A DNA stretch of 20,126 nt from a virus. The position numbers were made by a program, and so were the translations under genes. This document shows positions 4,623-14,991 of the stretch, one piece after another. The stretch covers positions 1 through 20,126 of IMG/VR virus record IMGVR_UViG_3300035698_005226; one strand, 5' to 3'. The stretch's first letter is position 1. The number at the start of each line of letters is the position of its first letter. A model generated the notes under the pieces. That model was not told where the DNA came from, made no database searches, and saw only the letters and a program-made list of their open reading frames with translations.

Positions 4623-5702
4623 TTGGATTATAGAATAGATTTATTTATTTGGTCGGTTGCGCTTTCGATATTACTTTCTTTCGTCGTAATGTATAAAAAA
4701 TCCGGCTTAATTCTCACAATTGCTTTTGCATACATGCTATTTTCTGGAATTTTTTACGCATTAATGCCCGAATCACCTTATCTTTATCTTGGCAAGAAAT
4801 CAGCCGTAGCGACTCAATACATGGCTTTTATGGCACTTGCGAACGCATTGCTATGCTTTGTACCAATCTTTAGTATGAGCATTAAAAACGTCAAGAGGTT
4901 GCTTCAATTCATAGTAGTTTTGTCAATTACTAGCTCTTTGATTATTTTGTATAAAAAAATAATTCATTTCAACTCTGGATACTCTTTTTTATATGGATTG
5001 GTTCAGAATACTAGCTCGGAAGGTAACTTTTTGGCGATAATGACCCCAATAATCTTTTTTAGAAATGATTTTTTGCCAATTAACAAGCCTTGGAGAATAT
5101 TAGCTAGGATTATTCACGTAGTTGCTGCAATTATTACTACTTCATCAATGGCGATTGGTGGAATGTTACTAGCTTTTTGCCTATATGGAATAATTAAGAG
5201 CAAGAAAAAGAAAATGATTATATCAACTATCTTGATTTCAACTGTTGTCTTTGCACTATATCGAAGCGGGGTAGTTCTACCAACAAATAAGGTCGATTTA
5301 TTTAGTTCAAGTGGAAGAGTCGAACATTGGCTTTTTTTCATGGATAAGTGGTGGGATTATTGTAATTTATATTTTGGAACTGGAGTCGGGACTTTTCAGG
5401 GTTTCGGACCATGGCTCCAGTCTAGCTGGACGCACCCAATTGTCCTTTTTCCCAATATGCACAATTGTTGGTTGCAGCTTGTTTTTGAAATGGGTTTTGT
5501 TGGTTTATTCCTGGGATTACTTGTCGCTTTTCAAGCTCTTTGGAGATCTAAAAAAAATACATGGCTATTTATTTCGATATTGATTTATATTGTTATCGCT
5601 GCGATGAATATGCCTACCAAATATCAAATAACGGCAGTTTTGGGAGTTATTCTTCTAAGATTGTCGTGCGAGAGGGATCGAAAATGGCAATTGTTAGGCT
5701 AG
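4623..5702 (+). CDS. O-antigen ligase/polymerase-like membrane protein (Wzy_C/WaaL type)
   Basis: Proteins of this class join or polymerise surface polysaccharide units on the periplasmic side of the inner membrane. The 359-residue product has about nine or ten hydrophobic segments (for example 7-24, 28-47, 66-85, 92-110, 163-190, 198-213, 282-305, 313-330). The large loop carries the family pattern: SGR with W236 (S230-R232), a short GTGVGTF segment (252-258), then MHNCWLQLVFEMGFVGL with H280 and E289. R232 and H280 match the Arg and His expected in the periplasmic loop. The N-terminal half has the GNFLAIMTPI motif region. TTG start with GGGGGAG four bases earlier. It has its own promoter and no phage structural role, so I infer lysogenic conversion of the host surface. 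Ligase versus polymerase cannot be decided. Confidence 0.85.
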   Translation: MDYRIDLFIWSVALSILLSFVVMYKKSGLILTIAFAYMLFSGIFYALMPESPYLYLGKKSAVATQYMAFMALANALLCFVPIFSMSIKNVKRLLQFIVVLSITSSLIILYKKIIHFNSGYSFLYGLVQNTSSEGNFLAIMTPIIFFRNDFLPINKPWRILARIIHVVAAIITTSSMAIGGMLLAFCLYGIIKSKKKKMIISTILISTVVFALYRSGVVLPTNKVDLFSSSGRVEHWLFFMDKWWDYCNLYFGTGVGTFQGFGPWLQSSWTHPIVLFPNMHNCWLQLVFEMGFVGLFLGLLVAFQALWRSKKNTWLFISILIYIVIAAMNMPTKYQITAVLGVILLRLSCERDRKWQLLG

Positions 5703-5824
5703 TAGTAATTACTTCATTTATGATCTTTGTAACTTTTCTCGCGCTAGTCTTTTCAATATTTGTAGATCTTTTTTTGATAATTGATACTGCATTATTTAAG
5801 ATAATTAATTGGCTTTTACGATAG
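5684..5824 (+). CDS. Small hydrophobic protein overlapping the ligase-like gene
   Basis: ATG at 5684 has GAGAGGGA 5-10 bases upstream and lies in another frame inside the last codons of the ligase-like gene (19-base overlap). The 46-residue product is almost entirely hydrophobic (VVITSFMIFVTFLALVFSIF then LFLIIDTALFKIINWLLR), one or two membrane helices with a basic end. It may be a partner of the ligase-like protein or a small exclusion protein; neither is shown. The 3' end overlaps the end of the convergent phosphoesterase by 20 bases. Confidence 0.5.
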   Translation: MAIVRLVVITSFMIFVTFLALVFSIFVDLFLIIDTALFKIINWLLR

Positions 5825-6692
5825 ACATTTCTAAGCCGTATTTGTAAGAAAAAGACAGTGTTAGCCAATATGCTCCAATGGGTCGCGGACCATGACCCCG
5901 CTCAACCTCAAACTCACCAACCCCAGTGCCATATGAATCTTTATATGTCGGTATCTGAACAAAATAATTTGTTTTTCTTTCGATCTTACCATCGTTTGCT
6001 AAACAGAGCCTTACGTTTTCCTGCAACCAGCTTCGATGAACATGACCGCCAAGAAGAATATCTGCATTTTCTATATACGTTCTTTGGACGCTACTTTGTG
6101 GCATATTTTGCGTAGCATGACCGCCGCCGCCGTACCCATGATTATACCATATGGTTCGAGAGTATCCAGTCGTTCCGTTGCCCAGTTTCATGATAATTCG
6201 TATCCATCCCGTATAACCGAGAGCTTGAATTTGCGAACCTGTTTGATAATTGAGAATGTCGGCAAGTCTTGACGTTAAATCAGTCTCATGTTTCTTTTTT
6301 ATTGCAGTTTCGTGATTTCCATGACCCATTACTAGCCAATTTTTTGCATATTTCTCATAATCTTTTGCAGTAGTTTTAACGAGGCTATCAAGATAATTAT
6401 CTGTTTTGTGCTCGGGTCTCAAACTTGACTTACTGCTTCTCTTGTCGAATTTTCCCTGCATGGCACAGAATAAGTCTCCAATGTCTATTATATATCTATC
6501 TTTCTTTTCTTTATTGTTCTTAGCTAGGCATTGATCGAGGTGTTTAAATTCTAATTCTTGATTGCAATGTATGTTGTCGTGGTGGGCATCGGATCTCAAT
6601 AAAAATTTTTGCGACCAGCCTGCCTTTACTCCATTTAATTCAATTCTTAGAGCGTTCGCGTCGGTCTTGACTATTTTAAAATTGTCTTCCAT
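5805..6692 (-). CDS. Calcineurin-like metallophosphoesterase
   Basis: The 295-residue product has the complete metallophosphoesterase motif set: SDAHHDN (D35, H37), IDIGDLF (D73), MGHGNHE (N126, H127), YNHGYGGG (H185) and LGGHVHRS (H217, H219). It should bind two metals and hydrolyse a phosphoester; the substrate (nucleic acid, nucleotide or other) cannot be read from the sequence. No signal peptide, so it is cytoplasmic. It is the only clear minus-strand gene between two plus-strand operons, starts after GAGGT, and has its own promoter (6725-6754). Orientation and private promoter suggest an accessory gene, possibly for DNA or nucleotide metabolism or host takeover. Its 3' end overlaps the convergent small membrane ORF. 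Confidence 0.88.
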   Translation of the reverse strand: MEDNFKIVKTDANALRIELNGVKAGWSQKFLLRSDAHHDNIHCNQELEFKHLDQCLAKNNKEKKDRYIIDIGDLFCAMQGKFDKRSSKSSLRPEHKTDNYLDSLVKTTAKDYEKYAKNWLVMGHGNHETAIKKKHETDLTSRLADILNYQTGSQIQALGYTGWIRIIMKLGNGTTGYSRTIWYNHGYGGGGHATQNMPQSSVQRTYIENADILLGGHVHRSWLQENVRLCLANDGKIERKTNYFVQIPTYKDSYGTGVGEFEVERGHGPRPIGAYWLTLSFSYKYGLEMSIVKAN

Positions 6693-7791: not shown

Positions 7792-7982
7792 AGCTAATTT
7801 TAATCATAATGGCTTTTTGTATATTTATGTCGTCATGCACTACGATGAGAAGGAAGCTCCGAAAAAAGCCAGTTCTCAGAGTTAACCACAAAAGGCAATG
7901 CGTAAAAGAATTACTAGCAATAAAGAAAATTAACAATATTGACGAGGCGATTAAAGGCTGCGAGTGGGTTGAGGAAAAATGA
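7788..7982 (+). CDS. Small predicted lipoprotein
   Basis: The 64-residue product has a lipoprotein signal: MK, a hydrophobic core (LILIIMAFCIF) and a lipobox-like MSSC with C17, so processing would leave a ~48-residue lipid-anchored peptide. The mature part is strongly basic near the anchor (MRRKLRKKP) and has two further cysteines (QCVKELL, GCEWVEE). Candidates are an outer-membrane spanin-like subunit or a surface exclusion lipoprotein. It is not proline-rich as classical Rz1 proteins are, and no inner-membrane spanin gene overlaps it, so neither is secure. Overlaps the genes on both sides by 4 bases. Confidence 0.6.
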   Translation: MKLILIIMAFCIFMSSCTTMRRKLRKKPVLRVNHKRQCVKELLAIKKINNIDEAIKGCEWVEEK

Positions 7983-8176
7983 AATGCCCAGTATGTGAAA
8001 GTCTCTCGATTAGAATAATAGGAAAAGAGTTTAGTACTTCAATGAAAGAGATGGGAAATGTAATTTTAGTAAATGATGCTAGGAATTATGTTTGCGAGGA
8101 TTGCGGTTCTGAATGGGTAGCAAGCGAGCAAGCAAGACATATTGAAGCATATATAAGAGACCTGGAGAGGAAATGA
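7979..8176 (+). CDS. Zinc-ribbon protein (65 residues)
   Basis: ATG 7979 follows TTGAGGAAAA and overlaps the lipoprotein stop. The product has C3-x2-C6 at the N-terminus and CEDCGSEW (about residues 39-46) after a beta-hairpin-like segment, a zinc ribbon, then a helix (SEQARHIEAYIRDLERK). Size and two-CxxC layout are like Com, the 62-residue zinc-finger translational activator of mom in phage Mu. A Mom-family gene lies 500 bases downstream, but the sequence itself is not evidently Com-like. It could equally be a MqsA/YgiT-type N-terminal zinc ribbon. Role unproven. Confidence 0.65.
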   Translation: MKCPVCESLSIRIIGKEFSTSMKEMGNVILVNDARNYVCEDCGSEWVASEQARHIEAYIRDLERK

Positions 8177-8685
8177 AAGAGAAGATAAATTGCACCTTTA
8201 CCAATATGGTAGATATTCACAAAATAATACCAAATCCAAAAAATAATAATCGTCACAGCGTTGAGCAAGTTGCAAGATTAGCGAAAATAATTGATTTTCA
8301 AGGACAAAGAAGACCCTTGATTATATCCAAAACTAGCGGATTCTTGAATTGCGGACATTGTACTCTCGATGCGATTAAATTGCTTGAATGGAAAGAATGT
8401 GCGGTTGATTATCAGAAGTTTGAAAGCGAAGCGGCTGAATATGCAAACATGACAGCGGATAATGAGCTTGCGCGGTGGGCTGAATTAGATAAGCATCAAA
8501 TGGCTATATCGATTAAAGACATGGATTTTAATATTGATTTGGACTTATTGGGGATACAATCGTTTAATGACGACTTTGCGCCAGGAAGCGAGGAGGATCA
8601 AGGCGTTTTAGACGAACTAGACGCTAAATGGTTTACCTGTCCTTCTTGTGATAAAAAAGTAGATTTGAGGGACTATGGGCATTAA
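8173..8685 (+). CDS. ParB-like N-terminal domain protein with C-terminal zinc knuckle
   Basis: The 170-residue product has a ParB/Srx-type N-terminal domain: DIHKIIPNPKNNNRHS (14-29), VARLAKIIDFQGQRRPLII (33-51) and GFLNCGHCTLDAIKLLEW (56-73). The usual G-x-x-R of ParB box II is replaced by GHCT, so CTP binding or nuclease activity may differ. Residues 85-107 (ESEAAEYANMTADNELARW) match the region after box II seen in phage ParB-like proteins. The C-terminus adds CPSC (C156, C159) and ends DLRDYGH. It lacks the ParB helix-turn-helix and dimer domains, so it is not a partition protein. It overlaps mom by 11 bases; a role with the modification system is inferred. Confidence 0.8.
   Translation: MKEKINCTFTNMVDIHKIIPNPKNNNRHSVEQVARLAKIIDFQGQRRPLIISKTSGFLNCGHCTLDAIKLLEWKECAVDYQKFESEAAEYANMTADNELARWAELDKHQMAISIKDMDFNIDLDLLGIQSFNDDFAPGSEEDQGVLDELDAKWFTCPSCDKKVDLRDYGH
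8639..8673 (+). promoter_or_regulatory. Possible hairpin sequestering the mom ribosome binding site
   Basis: GTCCTTC (8639-8645) can pair over seven positions (one G-U) with GAGGGAC (8667-8673), which is the Shine-Dalgarno of the Mom gene, one base before its ATG at 8675. The 21-base loop is AT-rich. Mu mom is known to be held off by an RNA stem-loop that Com opens. Here the pairing is visible but its stability was not computed. Confidence 0.35.
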
Positions 8686-9355
8686 ACCAAAATTAAAACT
8701 AGACTGGGCAACACACGAAGCCGCTAAATATGCTTGCACTCATTGGCATTACTCTAAATGTCTTCCTGTTGGAAAACTTGTAAAAATAGGAGTATGGGAA
8801 GATAATGTCTACAAGGGTGTTATAATATATTCGAGAGGTGCAAATAAGTCGCTAATGTCTCAAGTCGGACTATCTCAAACAGAAGGATGCGAGCTTACGC
8901 GAATTGCATTGACTGACCATTGTCACGAAGTTAGTAAAATGATTGCAATTTCTCTCAAAATACTGAAAAGAAAAGATAAAGGCTTGAAGGCAGTTATCTC
9001 TTTTGCTGACAAAGAACAAGACCATCACGGAGGGATATATCAAGCATCGAATTGGATATATATGGGAGAGACGAAAGGTGCTGACGAATATCTCTACAAT
9101 GGCAAGAGGTGGCATGGTCGAGCGTTTAGAAAAAGCAAAGGATCTCATCTTAATTATTTAAGCAGAGGGCTTGAAATAATAAAAGGATCACAAAAGCATA
9201 GATACTTAATGCCATTGCATAACAGAAAGGCGTATGATAAATACTCCAAAGGAAAATACCCTACGCGCGTCGAGCATGAAAGTAATGCGTCTAGCTACCA
9301 GCTAGAAGAAAGCGGTGCAATACCGACTGACGCGCTCCATAAAAAGAGGAAATAA
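8675..9355 (+). CDS. mom: Mom-family DNA adenine hypermodification protein
   Basis: Mom of phage Mu converts adenine in phage DNA to N6-(carbamoylmethyl)adenine and protects it from restriction. This 226-residue product carries the family pattern in order: AAKYACTHWHYSKCLPVG (16-33), LVKIGVWEDNVYKGVIIYSRGAN in pieces (35-57), EGCELTRIAL (70-79), KAVISFADKEQDHHGGIYQA (105-124) and SNWIYMGET (125-133). This is the GNAT-like Mom core. Start ATG 8675 uses GAGGGA and lies inside the ParB-like gene. It sits directly before the terminase genes, whereas in Mu mom is at the far end of the genome. The modified base is predicted from family membership and not seen in the sequence. Confidence 0.88.
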   Translation: MGIKPKLKLDWATHEAAKYACTHWHYSKCLPVGKLVKIGVWEDNVYKGVIIYSRGANKSLMSQVGLSQTEGCELTRIALTDHCHEVSKMIAISLKILKRKDKGLKAVISFADKEQDHHGGIYQASNWIYMGETKGADEYLYNGKRWHGRAFRKSKGSHLNYLSRGLEIIKGSQKHRYLMPLHNRKAYDKYSKGKYPTRVEHESNASSYQLEESGAIPTDALHKKRK

Positions 9356-9717
9356 TGGGAAGACCAAGAAAGGAATTAAACCAGGATGAATTTGAGAAAC
9401 TTTGTGCAATGCAAGCAACAAAAGACGAGATATGCGGCTGGTTTGAGTGTGACGAGAAGACTGTCACCGCGCGTTGTAAGGAATGGTATGAATTAAGTTT
9501 TTCCGACACATACAAACAAAAGAGAGGAGTGGGAAAGATTGCACTTCGGAGAGCGCAGTACCAGAACGCACTTGGAGGCAATACTGTCATGCAGATATGG
9601 CTCGGAAAACAGCACCTCAAGCAATCTGATAAGCAAGAAATCAATAATCCCGATGGGAACATGTCGAGAGTCATTGTGGTTCCAAGCAATGGAAGGGAAA
9701 AAATCGAAGATGACTAA
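9355..9717 (+). CDS. terS: Terminase small subunit
   Basis: The 120-residue product begins MGRPRKELNQDEFEKLCAM and has a helix-turn-helix region (about 17-45: ATKDEICGWFECDEKTVTAR) typical of small terminase subunits that recognise the packaging site. The second half (IALRRAQYQNALGGNTVM, then QIWLGKQHLKQSDK) is the conserved helical segment seen in this group. TAATG overlap with mom and a GAGG site fix the start. The large subunit follows after 56 bases. DNA recognition site is not visible. Confidence 0.85.
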   Translation: MGRPRKELNQDEFEKLCAMQATKDEICGWFECDEKTVTARCKEWYELSFSDTYKQKRGVGKIALRRAQYQNALGGNTVMQIWLGKQHLKQSDKQEINNPDGNMSRVIVVPSNGREKIEDD

Positions 9718-9796
9718 ATGGATTAAAAAATTGTTAGGTGACTATTCCGCAACAACATGTCGACCATACCTAGATGAAACAAAAAAAAGTCGATAA
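9710..9796 (+). CDS. Possible 28-residue bridging ORF between terminase genes
   Basis: ATG 9710 overlaps the end of the small terminase gene and the ORF runs through the gap to TAA 9794-9796, 23 bases inside the large terminase gene. It begins MTKWIKKLLGDYSATT. The large terminase start has no ribosome binding site, so translation of this ORF could carry ribosomes to it. No homology or own strong site supports it. Confidence 0.25.
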   Translation: MTKWIKKLLGDYSATTCRPYLDETKKSR

Positions 9797-11204
9797 AATT
9801 ACCGCACAATCTGGACCACAAACACAATTATTGGAGTGTGGTGCCGACGTAGCTTTTTACGGTGGTTCTGCGGGCGGTGGAAAAACTTTTGGCATACTCT
9901 TGGACGCATCAAGACATATCAATAATGGAAATGCAGGCGTTGAGATCTTTAGAAAAACAATGCCTCAAATTACAAAAGAGGGTGCATTGTGGGACGTTGC
10001 AAAAGACCTATTCGTTCCGATGGGCGCAAAAACTAGGGAATCGCCCGCGCATGATTTGATATTTAATTCAGGATATAAGATGTCTTTTTCTCATTTACAA
10101 CATGAAAAAGATAAGCACAATTACCAAGGTTCACAAATACCTGTTATTTATTTTGACGAATTAACTCATTTCACAAGGACGCAATTCTTTTATTTATTAG
10201 GCAGAAATAGGTCAACAAATTGTGGATTTGATCCCTATGCGAGAGCAACCTGCAACCCTGATAAGACCTCATGGGTGCGCTCATTTATCGATTGGTACAT
10301 TGATGCCGATGGATATGCAATACCGGAAAGATCCGGCGTTATTCGCTGGTTGTGTGTAGTTGACGATAAGGATAATTGGTTTGATTCAAAAGAAGAGGCA
10401 TTGGAGGCTTTTCCAAATATTCCACCTATTTCTTTTACTTTTATATTGTCAAGATTAAAGGATAATAAAATTCTTAACGAAAAAGATCCATCTTATCGAG
10501 CTAAACTTTTGGCATTGTCTAAAGTCGAAAGAGAAAGGCTTTTAGGCGATGAGGAAAAGGGTGGCAATTGGGATATTATGCCAGCGGCAGGAATGTTTTT
10601 TAAGCAAGAGCAATTTGAGGAAGTCCAGGCGCATCAACCATTTATTGAAGTCGTTAGGGCATGGGATCGAGCAGCAACCGAATGGAAATTAGGTGATTCG
10701 GGAGATCCTGACTATACAGTAGGCGTTAAACTTGGCAAATGTCATGATAATACTTTTGTAGTACTAGATGTAATTAGAGAGAGGTATTCTCCGGGAAAAG
10801 TAGAGGCATTGATATTGAATACTGCGCGTCAAGATGGAATTAATGTTACCATTAAAGGCTTTCAAGACCCTGGCGGCGCGGGAAAGGGCGAGGCAGAAAA
10901 CTTTGTTAAAATGTTGTCGGGATTTGTTGTCAAAATAGAGAAGATTTCAACAGATAAAGAGACATCGGCGCGCGCTGTATCGGCTCAAGTCGAGGTAGGA
11001 AACGTCAGAGTATTAGCGACTTGCAGAAAGAAAGATGCGTTTTATTCGGAGCTTGAAAACTTTCCCGAAGATAATCACGATGATATTGTAGATGCTTTTT
11101 CGGGAGCTTTTAACTATCTGAATGAAGGTAACGTGGGAGAGTTTACAGACGATCACGTTAATAATAACATGGATAGTGAACATCAAGAAAAGGAAGAGTG
11201 GTAA
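9774..11204 (+). CDS. terL: Terminase large subunit (ATPase and nuclease)
   Basis: The packaging motor cuts concatemeric DNA and pumps it into the prohead. The 476-residue product has Walker A GGSAGGGKT (30-38), Walker B VIYFDE (124-129) and the ATCNP coupling motif (158-162). The C-terminal RNase H-like nuclease has acids D298 (RAWDRAAT), D332 (VVLDV) and D436, D437 and D440 (HDDIVDAF). Also conserved is FQDPGGAGKGEA (364-374). Length is normal. The codon before ATG 9774 is a TAG, so no upstream extension is possible, yet no Shine-Dalgarno is seen; coupling to the preceding ORF is likely. The last ~25 residues are acidic and variable. Confidence 0.95.
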   Translation: MKQKKVDKITAQSGPQTQLLECGADVAFYGGSAGGGKTFGILLDASRHINNGNAGVEIFRKTMPQITKEGALWDVAKDLFVPMGAKTRESPAHDLIFNSGYKMSFSHLQHEKDKHNYQGSQIPVIYFDELTHFTRTQFFYLLGRNRSTNCGFDPYARATCNPDKTSWVRSFIDWYIDADGYAIPERSGVIRWLCVVDDKDNWFDSKEEALEAFPNIPPISFTFILSRLKDNKILNEKDPSYRAKLLALSKVERERLLGDEEKGGNWDIMPAAGMFFKQEQFEEVQAHQPFIEVVRAWDRAATEWKLGDSGDPDYTVGVKLGKCHDNTFVVLDVIRERYSPGKVEALILNTARQDGINVTIKGFQDPGGAGKGEAENFVKMLSGFVVKIEKISTDKETSARAVSAQVEVGNVRVLATCRKKDAFYSELENFPEDNHDDIVDAFSGAFNYLNEGNVGEFTDDHVNNNMDSEHQEKEEW

Positions 11205-11494: not shown

Positions 11495-11511
11495 AAAATT
11501 TGGAGCTAAGA

Positions 11512-12882
11512 ATGGCGATTTGGGATGTTTTCAAGAAGAATCAAGAGGTAGTTGAAAAAGAAATCAATACAGTAACAGTGCAAGTAGTAGAGCGAGGAAC
11601 TTCGGGAACTGAAATCTATGCAGGTTATTATGATGAAGAGTATCTGGACAGCTTAAATACTAACGAGAGAGCCGCAGTATTCGACAAGATGCGAAGGAGC
11701 GACTACCAAGCCAAGATGCTTCTATCTGCGGTTAAGCACCCGATAAGAACGGCGAATAAAGAGATCTTTGAAGCAAGCGAAGACGTAGAGCATTTACGTC
11801 ATGCCGAAGTTTGTCGCAGGGTATTACTTGAAGATTTGAATACCGACAAGTTTATTAATGAGCAGTTAACAATGCTTGATTTTGGACATTCAGTATTTGA
11901 AAGAGTCATGCAACCCAACATTAATAAACCAATCACGGACAAGGAAGGTAAAAAAATCCTAGATTCATACGTTGGATATAAAAAATTAGGTTGGAGATCT
12001 CCAAAGACTATCGAAACGTGGAATTTTGATTGCGTTACTAGAGAATTTTTATCTATTCGGCAATGTGCTGACGGTGATCTCTCGATCGACGTTGATATTC
12101 CTGCAAAGTTTCTCACTATTTTAACTTTAGAACATGAAGGCGATAATTTAGAAGGAATTTCCATGTTAAGACCTTGCTATGGTAACTGGTTTAGAAAAAA
12201 CACTTATTTAAAACTTAATGCGATTGGAATCGAAAAATCAATGCCAATCCCTACCGCCGAAGTGCCATTGGGTAAAGAAGCGTCAACAGAATTTAATAAT
12301 TTAGTCTCTGTTTTGGAGAAATTCACAACAAATCAAAAGAACTATATAACCTACCCTGTAGGCTGGAATGTAAATCTAAGTAATGGAACTGTATACGATC
12401 CATCTAAGGTCGAAACTTCTATAGATTCCGAGGATAGGAGAATGGCAAAGGCTTTTATTGCTAATTTCTTAGAACTTGGAAGCGGTGGTAGTACAGGCTC
12501 TTACGCATTATCTAATGATTTATCAGATTTCTTTTTGGGTGGTTTAGTTTATATTTCCAGGATATTAGAAAAAGCGTTCAATGATCTTTGCAAAGAAATT
12601 ACTATAATGAACTTTGGAGAGCAGGAAAAATACCCAACATTTGAATTTTCAGGGATTAGAGATAAGGCAGGAAAAGAACTTGCGGAAATTCTAAAAATGA
12701 TGGTTGATGGAAAGGTAATCGTTCCCGATGATAAATTAGAACATCACATAAGGAAGAGATTAAGCTTGTCTCCCAAAAGCGATGAGGGTCAAAGAGATCA
12801 AGAGGAAGCCGCGCCAATGCAGTTTTCTTTGTCTGAGAAAATAAAGATGGGAATTGAAGCACGAAAGAATATGGTGGAATAA
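11512..12882 (+). CDS. Portal protein, DUF935 (Mu gp29-like)
   Basis: The portal dodecamer forms the DNA gate of the head. The 456-residue product follows the Mu gp29/DUF935 pattern: YDEEYLDSLNTNERAAVFDKM-type N-terminus, SDYQAKMLLSAVKHPI, LLEDLNTDKFINEQL, MLDFGHSVFERV, KLGWRSPKTIETWNFD, then a C-terminal LGSGGSTGSYALS and FFLGGLVYISRILEKAFND. GGAG at 11502-11505 selects ATG 11512 over the in-frame TTG 11500. It is followed with TAATG overlap by a small gene and then MuF, as usual for this cluster. Confidence 0.9.
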   Translation: MAIWDVFKKNQEVVEKEINTVTVQVVERGTSGTEIYAGYYDEEYLDSLNTNERAAVFDKMRRSDYQAKMLLSAVKHPIRTANKEIFEASEDVEHLRHAEVCRRVLLEDLNTDKFINEQLTMLDFGHSVFERVMQPNINKPITDKEGKKILDSYVGYKKLGWRSPKTIETWNFDCVTREFLSIRQCADGDLSIDVDIPAKFLTILTLEHEGDNLEGISMLRPCYGNWFRKNTYLKLNAIGIEKSMPIPTAEVPLGKEASTEFNNLVSVLEKFTTNQKNYITYPVGWNVNLSNGTVYDPSKVETSIDSEDRRMAKAFIANFLELGSGGSTGSYALSNDLSDFFLGGLVYISRILEKAFNDLCKEITIMNFGEQEKYPTFEFSGIRDKAGKELAEILKMMVDGKVIVPDDKLEHHIRKRLSLSPKSDEGQRDQEEAAPMQFSLSEKIKMGIEARKNMVE

Positions 12883-13058
12883 TGACAACAGAAACGGCTC
12901 CTAGCGACAGACAGGTAAATAGGCGAGAGCATGACAAAGACAAGAGAGCGAAGAGAGTTACTCTTGACGAATACCTAGCCTCGAATACTCTCCAATACAC
13001 GACAACAACAATCAGTACAACAGCGAAAGATTCTAACTTTTTGGTAATTTACGAATAA
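12882..13058 (+). CDS. Hypothetical basic 58-residue protein
   Basis: ATG 12882 shares a base with the portal stop and the ORF ends TAA 13056-13058, filling the gap to MuF. The product is basic in the first half (RQVNRREHDKDKRAKRVTLD) and Thr/Ser-rich in the second (YTTTTISTTAKDSNF). No motif is recognised. Lying between portal and MuF it may be a head accessory, but only its placement and coupling support it as a gene. Confidence 0.5.
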   Translation: MTTETAPSDRQVNRREHDKDKRAKRVTLDEYLASNTLQYTTTTISTTAKDSNFLVIYE

Positions 13059-13069
13059 ATAGAGGGAAC

Positions 13070-13939
13070 ATGGCAAAGAATAAAGCAGGAAAACAAATAC
13101 GAGAAGCTAGAAAGGAATTGCGCGACGTAATGATGTTAGGACTAGCACCAATTGCCGACGATATTATAAAAAAAGTTATGAATAAATGGAGAAAGTCTAC
13201 AAAGGCATCAATGCTAAATGCTACTAAAGATATTAAGCCGATCGGAGTCAATATCTATAAGAAGGATTTGCAATCTGCTCTCGCTGTAGTCTCTTCCGTT
13301 GCGATCGATCAAGCCAGGAAAGAAGTGCCAAATACTAAGAATGTTAAATTTATCGAAGACGAAGAAAGATTATTATTTGGAGAATTTGAAAAATTACCTC
13401 CCAACCTAAGGCGACGAATCAATAGGACTAATGATTTATTAATAGGTACTCAAGTCGCAGATCTCGAAAAGTCTATTTATTTTCAATATCAATCGTCGGC
13501 AGGCGCAGGATTAACCGAATTAGAAATTACTGCCAACATGAACACAAAAGCCTCTAAATATATTGAAGGAAATGCGATAAATGGAGCCGCTGGAGTATCA
13601 GTATCAACGGTTGTTAATGAATCCAGGAACGCTTTCTTTATGCAAGACGATGTATTGGAGCAAATTGCAGCTTTTCAGTTTTTAAATGATGACCCAGTAA
13701 CTCCAATATGCCAAGACCTAAACGGAACTGTTTTCGATAAGAACGATCCCGACCATTTCAAGTATACGCCACCGCTTCATTGGAACTGCGATAGCTACAT
13801 GGTAACTATTCTGGTAGGAGATCCAAAAGCGAAAGAGATTGAAAAATTACAGCCATCCACGAAAGCACTTGATCAATCAATTCAATTTCAAGAGATCTTG
13901 ACCGCATTGCATCAACGCAAGAGAAGAAATTTAAGTTGA
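13070..13939 (+). CDS. MuF-like head morphogenesis protein
   Basis: The 289-residue product has the MuF signature near the C-terminus: PVTPICQDLNGTVFDKNDPD (209-228) and YTPPLHWNCDSYM (232-244), with C214, H237, W238, N239 and C240. Before that is the helical part with ANMNTKASKYIEGNAINGAA and SVSTVVNESRNAFF. MuF proteins are minor head proteins next to the portal, sometimes carrying toxin domains; none is seen here because the protein ends ~45 residues after the motif. Start from GAGGGA before ATG 13070. Confidence 0.88.
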   Translation: MAKNKAGKQIREARKELRDVMMLGLAPIADDIIKKVMNKWRKSTKASMLNATKDIKPIGVNIYKKDLQSALAVVSSVAIDQARKEVPNTKNVKFIEDEERLLFGEFEKLPPNLRRRINRTNDLLIGTQVADLEKSIYFQYQSSAGAGLTELEITANMNTKASKYIEGNAINGAAGVSVSTVVNESRNAFFMQDDVLEQIAAFQFLNDDPVTPICQDLNGTVFDKNDPDHFKYTPPLHWNCDSYMVTILVGDPKAKEIEKLQPSTKALDQSIQFQEILTALHQRKRRNLS

Positions 13940-13971
13940 CGATGCCTATTATCTTAACAGAGAATTAGGTA

Positions 13972-14991
13972 ATGAATAGTTATAGATTTATTCCCTTAAA
14001 ATTATCCGAAACTCTCTTTATGAATCCCGACATTGCTTCTACGGAAGTGCAATTGTTGAGAACTGGGAAGTTTTTCCAGAAAGATGTTGAGGTTGAGATC
14101 ACAAAAAAGACTCTTCGCAGTATGGTAAAGAACTTTTCGGAAGGGGTTCGCGGGATCGATTTAATGATTGACTATTCACATGACTCCGACAAGGAAGCGG
14201 CTGCATGGATTAAGGGCGTTTACTTATCTGAAAATGAAACCGAGCTTTGGTCAACAGTAGAGTGGACGGATGACGGTGAGAATGCGGTTAAGGGCAAGAA
14301 GTATAGATATTTATCAGCCGATTTCCAATTCAATTATAAAGATAACGAAACAATGGCAGAATATGGTCCAACATTGTTTGGAGCAGGCTTAACAAACAGA
14401 CCTGTTGTCAAAGGGATGCAACCAACTGTAGAATTAAGTGAAATTAAACTAGGGGATAATGAAATGTTAGAAAAAATGAAAAAAGAACTTGAAGAAATGA
14501 AAGGAAATCTTGTTAAAAAAGACGGGAAAATAAAAGAGCTTGAAGAAAAACTAGCTGAAAAAGATGCTAAGTTTGCAGAGAAAGAAGAAGAAATCAAACT
14601 AGCCGAAGAGAAGAAAGCTAACGAAGTTAAATTGACAGAAGAGAAACTAGCCGAAGAAACTAAGTTGGCAGAAAAGAAAACTTCTTTTGATAAGCTACTT
14701 TCTGAAAGCAAAGCAGTAGAAGCTCAGAGAGATTCTTATATGAATGACAATATGGCAGAATTTATTGAAAAAGCCGTAGATGTTAACGCAAATGAAAAAG
14801 GTTCAGGCGCGGACGTTGAAGTTAAAAAACCAGTAGACTCTGATACTCCAGCGCAAGATAAAGTCATTGAATTAGCAGAAAAAAAGATTGCAGAAAATAA
14901 AGATCTCGATATCGGAACGGCACAAAGTCTTGTTTTAAGTGAAGACAAGAAATTACTTGACGCATACGAAAAAGAGATGAATCCAGAATAG
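13972..14991 (+). CDS. Head maturation protease with scaffold domain (Mu I-like)
   Basis: Residues 1-~155 form a Mu I-like prohead protease: GIDLMIDYSHDSDKEAAAWI (61-80, H70), YRYLSADFQF (111-120, S115) and GAGLTNRPVVKGM (137-149). H70 and S115 are the likely catalytic pair by family resemblance (inferred). Residues ~165-260 are a Glu/Lys coiled coil, the scaffold, and the rest is an acidic helical tail. In Mu the scaffold Z is also made from an internal start of gene I, and an internal start with AGGGG is present here at 14464. The order protease, decoration, capsid fits the cluster. ATG 13972 follows AGGT. Confidence 0.85.
   Translation: MNSYRFIPLKLSETLFMNPDIASTEVQLLRTGKFFQKDVEVEITKKTLRSMVKNFSEGVRGIDLMIDYSHDSDKEAAAWIKGVYLSENETELWSTVEWTDDGENAVKGKKYRYLSADFQFNYKDNETMAEYGPTLFGAGLTNRPVVKGMQPTVELSEIKLGDNEMLEKMKKELEEMKGNLVKKDGKIKELEEKLAEKDAKFAEKEEEIKLAEEKKANEVKLTEEKLAEETKLAEKKTSFDKLLSESKAVEAQRDSYMNDNMAEFIEKAVDVNANEKGSGADVEVKKPVDSDTPAQDKVIELAEKKIAENKDLDIGTAQSLVLSEDKKLLDAYEKEMNPE
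14464..14991 (+). CDS. Possible separate scaffold protein from an internal in-frame start
   Basis: ATG 14464 is in frame with the protease gene (codon 165) and has AGGGG at 14451-14455, an 8-base spacing, better than the site of the full gene. It would give a 175-residue protein consisting of the coiled coil and acidic tail only, exactly the scaffold without protease. This parallels gene Z inside gene I of Mu and Nu3 inside C of lambda (known biology). Expression is inferred, not shown. Confidence 0.5.
   Translation: MLEKMKKELEEMKGNLVKKDGKIKELEEKLAEKDAKFAEKEEEIKLAEEKKANEVKLTEEKLAEETKLAEKKTSFDKLLSESKAVEAQRDSYMNDNMAEFIEKAVDVNANEKGSGADVEVKKPVDSDTPAQDKVIELAEKKIAENKDLDIGTAQSLVLSEDKKLLDAYEKEMNPE

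Follow-up and report, generated by a model that had tools for sequence, protein, structure and literature searches.

A ParB-like gene paired with mom in phages carries a tail that tracks the neighbouring modification enzyme

The window analysed here, the whole 20,126-nucleotide stretch of viral DNA, carries a ParB-like gene that overlaps the start of a mom gene. We consider that the two probably make up one functional unit, in which the ParB-like protein would serve as an adaptor subunit that docks the Mom enzyme through its C-terminal tail. The proposal is based on the conservation of the gene pair, on the match between the ParB-like tail and the enzyme encoded next to it, and on the exchange of tail and enzyme as one block between related phages.

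The gene pair and its conservation

Both open reading frames were found where the sequence-only reading had put them. The ParB-like gene, a putative adaptor gene recognized from the ORF list, PHROG profiles and the fold of its AF2 model, occupies positions 8173–8685 of the + strand (170 aa), and mom occupies positions 8675–9355 of the same strand (226 aa). The two had been described as fused in translation, which we reject: the ParB-like ORF stops 11 nt inside mom (8675–8685, +) and in a different reading frame, so these are separate genes. A GAGGG motif resembling a ribosome-binding site is present in the sequence just 5′ of the mom ATG (8667–8671, +). Directly 3′ of the pair, PHROG profiles identify a TerS-like gene (9355–9717, +; phrog_309, E = 3e-6) followed by the gene for TerL, the terminase large subunit (9774–11204, +; phrog_979, E = 4e-141, also detected by a Pfam profile search), which confirms the position directly before terS/terL that had been assigned to the pair.

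The pair is conserved. About 180 Mom ORFs, out of 212 distinct ones examined, are directly preceded by a ParB-like gene, most often with an overlap of 1–29 nt; the 212 ORFs, a few of which are pieces of one gene, come from viral contigs and species genomes and were drawn by similarity to the window Mom, so that the pairing holds for that branch rather than for the Mom family at large. The same order is seen in the isolates Enterococcus phiEf11, Microbacterium Appa (Appavirus) and Salinibacter B2_17. In Arthrobacter Marthavirus one small gene stands between the ParB-like gene and mom, and in seven loci on Chloroflexota MAG contigs the order is inverted, with the ParB-like gene directly downstream of mom and overlapping it. 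In five Mom loci (L260, L261, L266, L268 and L270) the ParB-like gene has diverged strongly and still encodes the Mom-type tail, and several loci in which mom appeared to be unpaired proved to be contig ends or to contain diverged ParB-like genes. Mom is found without a ParB neighbour in Mu, Salmonella FSL SP-031, Bacillus Riggi and some actinobacterial genomes. The conserved pairing supports the earlier suggestion that the ParB-like protein is a partner of Mom. Two of the outcomes named beforehand as refuting that suggestion, an absent Mom core and an unconserved gene pair, were checked and did not occur.

Variations on the cassette were also observed. In eight loci (L011, L051, L082, L094, L104, L111, L114 and L206) a conserved gene some 65 codons long (EQKNKNILxRFE...KFGxERF) is inserted between the ParB-like gene and mom, and its product is a possible third component. 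At another locus (L153, 235–756) a ParB-like gene with a Mom-type tail is followed directly by terS with no enzyme, perhaps as a decayed cassette. In the window itself, a small zinc-ribbon protein is encoded at 7979–8176 (+) by a gene that runs into the beginning of the ParB-like gene. It was considered as a third member of the cassette and dropped, as no enrichment of such genes was seen ahead of Mom pairs (11/151 versus 5/95, p = 0.6).

Further away in the window, Mu-like portal, protein F-like and Mu I-like protease/scaffold genes (11500–14991, +) come after a terminase of another type (phrog_979). A membrane protein matching O-antigen ligase (4623–5702, +; Wzy_C, E = 3e-9), unusual for a phage, perhaps alters host surface sugars. 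A calcineurin-like phosphoesterase/exonuclease-like gene (5805–6692, −) stands amid + strand genes, and at the contig edge (1–201, +) 9- and 12-nt tandem repeats encode the end of an Ala/Arg-rich protein.

The two gene products

The product of mom is securely a Mom-family DNA modification enzyme, as had been proposed. It matches the Pfam Mom family PF25680 with E = 4.5e-43 (147.7 bits, for a curated cut-off of 27.1) and phrog_1384 with E = 4e-55, and its sole PDB sequence match is Mu Mom (PDB entry 8BV8, E = 7.5e-34). Its AF2 model (pLDDT 89.6) displays a GNAT-like fold: 8BV8 is again the top entry in a PDB fold search (E = 2.3e-11, TM 0.66), and GNAT acyltransferases come next. The motifs THWHYSKC, SFADKEQDHHGGIYQA (the conserved Mom core; 8999–9046, +) and SNWIYMG are all present, and the core residues are kept in the alignment, with H25, Y26, S27, E73, L74, R76, S87, S109, A111, D112, G119 and Y122 common to the window and Mu enzymes. 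Among these, S87 (codon 8933–8935, +), at a position that is at least 90% conserved, aligns with S124 of Mu Mom, the residue substituted in the inactive 8BV8 protein (S124A).

The ParB-like protein begins with a ParB/sulfiredoxin-type N-domain of the 'LAKIIDFQGQR' family (8173–8562, +), whose close relatives are mostly paired with other modification enzymes. It matches the phrog_620 ParB profile (E = 1e-18), the N-terminal part of the phrog_498 DNA methyltransferase (E = 2e-21) and, in a PDB profile search, Spo0J (PDB entry 6sdk, E = 1.7e-12); the solved folds nearest to its AF2 model (pLDDT 89.7) are those of Noc (PDB entry 7ol9, E = 1.5e-5), ParB and KorB. Neither an HTH nor a ParB dimerization domain was found by Pfam search or in the AF2 model, in which a short helical segment and then a hairpin follow the N-domain. 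A search for the ParB-like protein on plasmids gave no match.

At box II, GHCT is indeed present in place of GxxR (residues 61–64; 8353–8364, +), with a threonine at the position of the NTP-binding arginine. The idea that this is a private trait of the window phage was dropped: of 283 aligned relatives, 21 also lack the arginine, and 15 of the 178 Mom pairs do so; the usual replacement is threonine, and the change is seen mostly in Mom pairs. This arginine is required for NTP binding in the homologues tested (PMC12704722), and the recurrence of its loss in both N-domain families suggests that some members may act without NTP.

The C-terminal tail (8569–8673, +; PGSEEDQGVLDELDAKWFTCPSCDKKVDLRD) is of the Mom-paired type and is the proposed Mom-docking module. 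It presents, on the short hairpin of the AF2 model, the CPSC knuckle (residues 156–159, with cysteines C156 and C159; 8638–8649, +) that the sequence-only reading had described as a gain of this protein. The knuckle does lie at the C-terminal end, but it is a common feature of the tail of Mom-paired ParB-like proteins and not a private acquisition. CPxC is invariant in 67 aligned relatives. The tail is predicted to be of the zinc-knuckle type and may bind zinc.

Tail, enzyme and block exchange

The ParB-like partnership is not special to Mom: across hundreds of related phages it extends to nearly all known types of phage DNA-modifying enzyme, which are chemically diverse. When loci were collected solely through the ParB N-domain, 103 of 115 ParB-like genes turned out to be joined to a modification enzyme or to have one as a neighbour, compared with 24 of 654 other ORFs with an enzyme directly downstream, a pairing that is far beyond chance; the enzyme classes were assigned by custom profiles whose representative sequences had been verified with Pfam. 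The window N-domain has its closest relatives in proteins that are fused to N6/N4 methyltransferases or stand beside D12 and C5 methyltransferases, ABC-ATPase-GNAT, TAGT glycosyltransferase, a queuine-transferase (TGT)-like and QueC pair, and a second Mom branch; a TET/JBP oxygenase is found beside a second ParB N-domain family (Pfam Tet_JBP, E = 1.2e-14). In 69 cases the same N-domains carry a fused adenine-type methyltransferase, which makes a physical complex likely; no natural ParB–Mom fusion occurs among the 212 Mom ORFs, which leaves direct docking of Mom a proposal. Three genes in the place of the enzyme after an orphan ParB-like gene (L132, 5500–5994; L316, 4591–5301; L380, 1175–1639) have no convincing family match and are candidates for new DNA-modifying enzymes.

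It is the tail of the ParB-like protein, and not box II, that tracks the enzyme. The Mom-type tail (consensus EDDQGxLDxLxPKxxxCPxCxxEFDxR) is found in 155 of 159 Mom-paired ParB-like proteins from two N-domain families, versus none of the 99 paired with other enzymes. Taken family by family, the tail profile is found in 8/8 Mom-paired proteins versus 0/43 others for the A3 family and in 147/151 versus 0/56 for A5. The tail itself had served to find some of the Mom set, and loci collected solely through the N-domain show a matching picture (5/5 versus 0/98, i.e. 1/1 versus 0/42 in A3 and 4/4 versus 0/56 in A5). Moreover, tail profiles trained on A3 recover the same enzyme in A5 proteins (146 for Mom, 3/3 for second-branch Mom and 3/3 for TAGT), and the second-branch Mom profile also recovers two inverted-order loci. 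The TAGT-type tail singled out one protein (L377) whose next gene is of another kind; a TAGT gene was found just beyond that gene. The TAGT- and D12-paired proteins have other tails, devoid of the knuckle. Since the profiles for D12- and C5-paired proteins are weak or leaky, firm evidence for the match is limited to Mom, second-branch Mom and TAGT.

Within the Mom pairs, a mirror-tree comparison gave no better agreement for the tail than for the N-domain (r = 0.46 between N-domain and Mom, 0.45 between tail and Mom and 0.36 between TerS and Mom). No cysteine or histidine of Mom was found to track the CPxC tail strictly, so a zinc site shared by the two proteins is not supported; H82 of Mom is present in 146 of 146 proteins with the tail and replaced by lysine in 6 of 7 without it, and is an arginine in three diverged knuckle-bearing loci. 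The travelling of the tail with the enzyme could partly be linkage.

Enzyme and N-domain are uncoupled: enzyme types are intermixed across the N-domain tree. The tree of 57 N-domains, in which many forks are open, requires 28 enzyme-label changes, against a mean of 30.6 after shuffling, and it contains well-supported sisters with different enzymes: L135 (Mom) and L129 (glycosyltransferase), L003 (Mom) and L309 (TET/JBP). Between related phages only the tail-plus-enzyme block is swapped, and the N-domain and terS stay. L003 and L309 share the upstream ORF (58%), ParB residues 1–130 (75%) and TerS (74%), but not the tail and the enzyme. L080 (Mom) and L148 (TAGT) likewise share the upstream ORF (69%), ParB residues 1–144 (76%), TerS (79%) and TerL (65%), again without the tail and the enzyme, and pairwise comparison of L135 with L129 and of L142 with L136 gives the same pattern. 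In the window, the downstream border of the exchanged block is placed, from these relatives, at the TerS-like gene. The window ParB-like protein is itself a mosaic of an N-domain that mostly stands beside other enzymes and a Mom-type tail: only 4 of the 40 best relatives of its N-domain are paired with the Mom branch of the window, and every one of the 129 significant tail matches belongs to a Mom pair. Its N-domain is closest to methyltransferase-fused ones (L116 and L118), with 59% identity to L116 over 128 residues.

Proposed mechanism and its rivals

In the mechanism that we propose, the C-terminal zinc-knuckle-type tail of the ParB-like protein would dock Mom, and the ParB-type N-domain would bring Mom to the phage DNA or switch it on. 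Adenines would then be hypermodified before packaging, which would let the phage DNA escape host restriction. The adaptor would not be specific to the chemistry of Mom, its tail acting as a matched plug, and phages would keep the N-domain and terS and swap the 'tail + enzyme' block in between. An NTP-gated clamp, as in ParB, is an attractive possibility that would serve any modifying enzyme; the threonine at box II and the missing HTH make engagement of DNA by the window protein less certain. A broader version, which we put forward more tentatively, is that a chemistry-independent ParB-like adaptor loads the enzymes onto phage DNA, that a tail code selects which one (Mom, second-branch Mom, TAGT glycosyltransferase, C5/D12 methyltransferase, TET/JBP or others), and that phages could change their DNA disguise by swapping tail and enzyme together. 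The N-domain would then perhaps be the NTP-gated clamp, and the window GHCT protein an NTP-independent variant.

We may wonder whether the ParB-like gene is instead a control element. It occupies the place that com has in Mu, overlapping the mom start, and the zinc finger protein Com activates translation of mom (PMC6483171); with a ribosome-binding-like motif at the window overlap, the ParB-like protein, its knuckle or translation through the overlap could regulate mom translation. Yet the tail is kept without gene overlap, both in the eight loci where the gene of about 65 codons separates the pair and in Arthrobacter phages, and second-branch Mom tails are kept with ParB downstream, in the inverted order. 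Moreover, the zinc site of Com is made of four cysteines (PMC6483171), compared with two in the tail, and the different, knuckle-free tails of the TAGT- and D12-paired proteins fit poorly with such control, which we find unlikely. Control at the level of transcription has a precedent in DndB, a ParB-like repressor of a DNA-modification operon (PMC12704722), but it appears very improbable for a protein that has no HTH, that has methyltransferase fusions among its relatives and whose family shows enzyme-matched tails.

A restriction-modification-like pair, in which the ParB-like protein would be an NTP-regulated nuclease acting on unmodified DNA and Mom would protect the phage DNA, would account for the pairing with chemically unrelated enzymes, and nicking ParB-like domains have been reported, including that of a Bacillus cereus ParB-methylase (PMC5512222). 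This seems rather improbable, since the active-site arginine of the superfamily is lost in the window and in 15 of 178 Mom pairs, and since a free nuclease needs no enzyme-matched tail. A link to packaging had also been suggested, in which the pair would work with the terminase and the DNA would be modified as it is packaged. Indeed, terS is directly downstream in the window and in many relatives, and of the 156 Mom pairs that could be assessed, at least 92 have a TerL-like gene no more than 1.6 kb away, as do at least 64 of 68 N6/N4 methyltransferase fusions. However, the pair is not directly before the terminase in Enterococcus, Arthrobacter and Microbacterium phages, the place before terS also holds methyltransferases, glycosyltransferases and others, and TerS correlates less well with Mom than ParB does (r = 0.36 versus 0.46). 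We therefore do not retain a link special to Mom, and regard modification coupled to packaging as quite improbable.

The adaptor reading, if correct, has several consequences. Phage ParB-like/methyltransferase fusions are already known but their role is not, and a tail that predicts the enzyme offers one, namely adaptor plus plug. Inspecting the gene that follows an orphan ParB-like gene would be a route to new DNA-modifying enzymes, with L132, L316 and L380 as examples. Finally, outside Mu the Mom enzyme may depend on a partner or be guided by one, which bears on attempts at reconstitution.

Relation to known systems

We found no description of a ParB–Mom pair or of the tail match in the literature searched, although earlier surveys could mention them. 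The closest systems are compared here. The phrog_498 fusions of a ParB-CTPase fold with an N6/N4 methyltransferase (PMC12704722) belong to the same N-domain families, and their survey makes no mention of Mom or terminase (PMC12704722). The window protein differs in that it has no methyltransferase domain: a zinc-knuckle-type tail replaces the linker and ends the protein, and Mom is encoded by a separate gene. In DndB phosphorothioate systems, compared by description only, a ParB-fold protein is also encoded with a DNA modification machine, but it is described as an ATP-dependent transcription repressor, with no exchangeable-tail pairing. Canonical ParB, Spo0J, Noc and KorB share the N-domain fold of the window protein, which is devoid of their HTH, dimerization domain and box II arginine. 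Cryoconite phages have a variable region with ParB adjoining terS/terL, in which methyltransferases are the most variable genes (PMC7468147); the portions of that work considered here do not describe the tail–enzyme match or the range of enzymes.

The last comparison is with the com-mom system of Mu. Mu Mom belongs to a distant branch (about 23% identity to the window Mom) with no ParB neighbour. The two enzymes nevertheless belong to the same Pfam family and have the same fold, with the HYS, ELxR, SFAD and GxxYQA residues in common, and in both systems a small zinc-type element is encoded across the mom start. In Mu the upstream gene encodes Com, a Cys4 zinc finger, whereas in the window this place is taken by the ParB-like gene.
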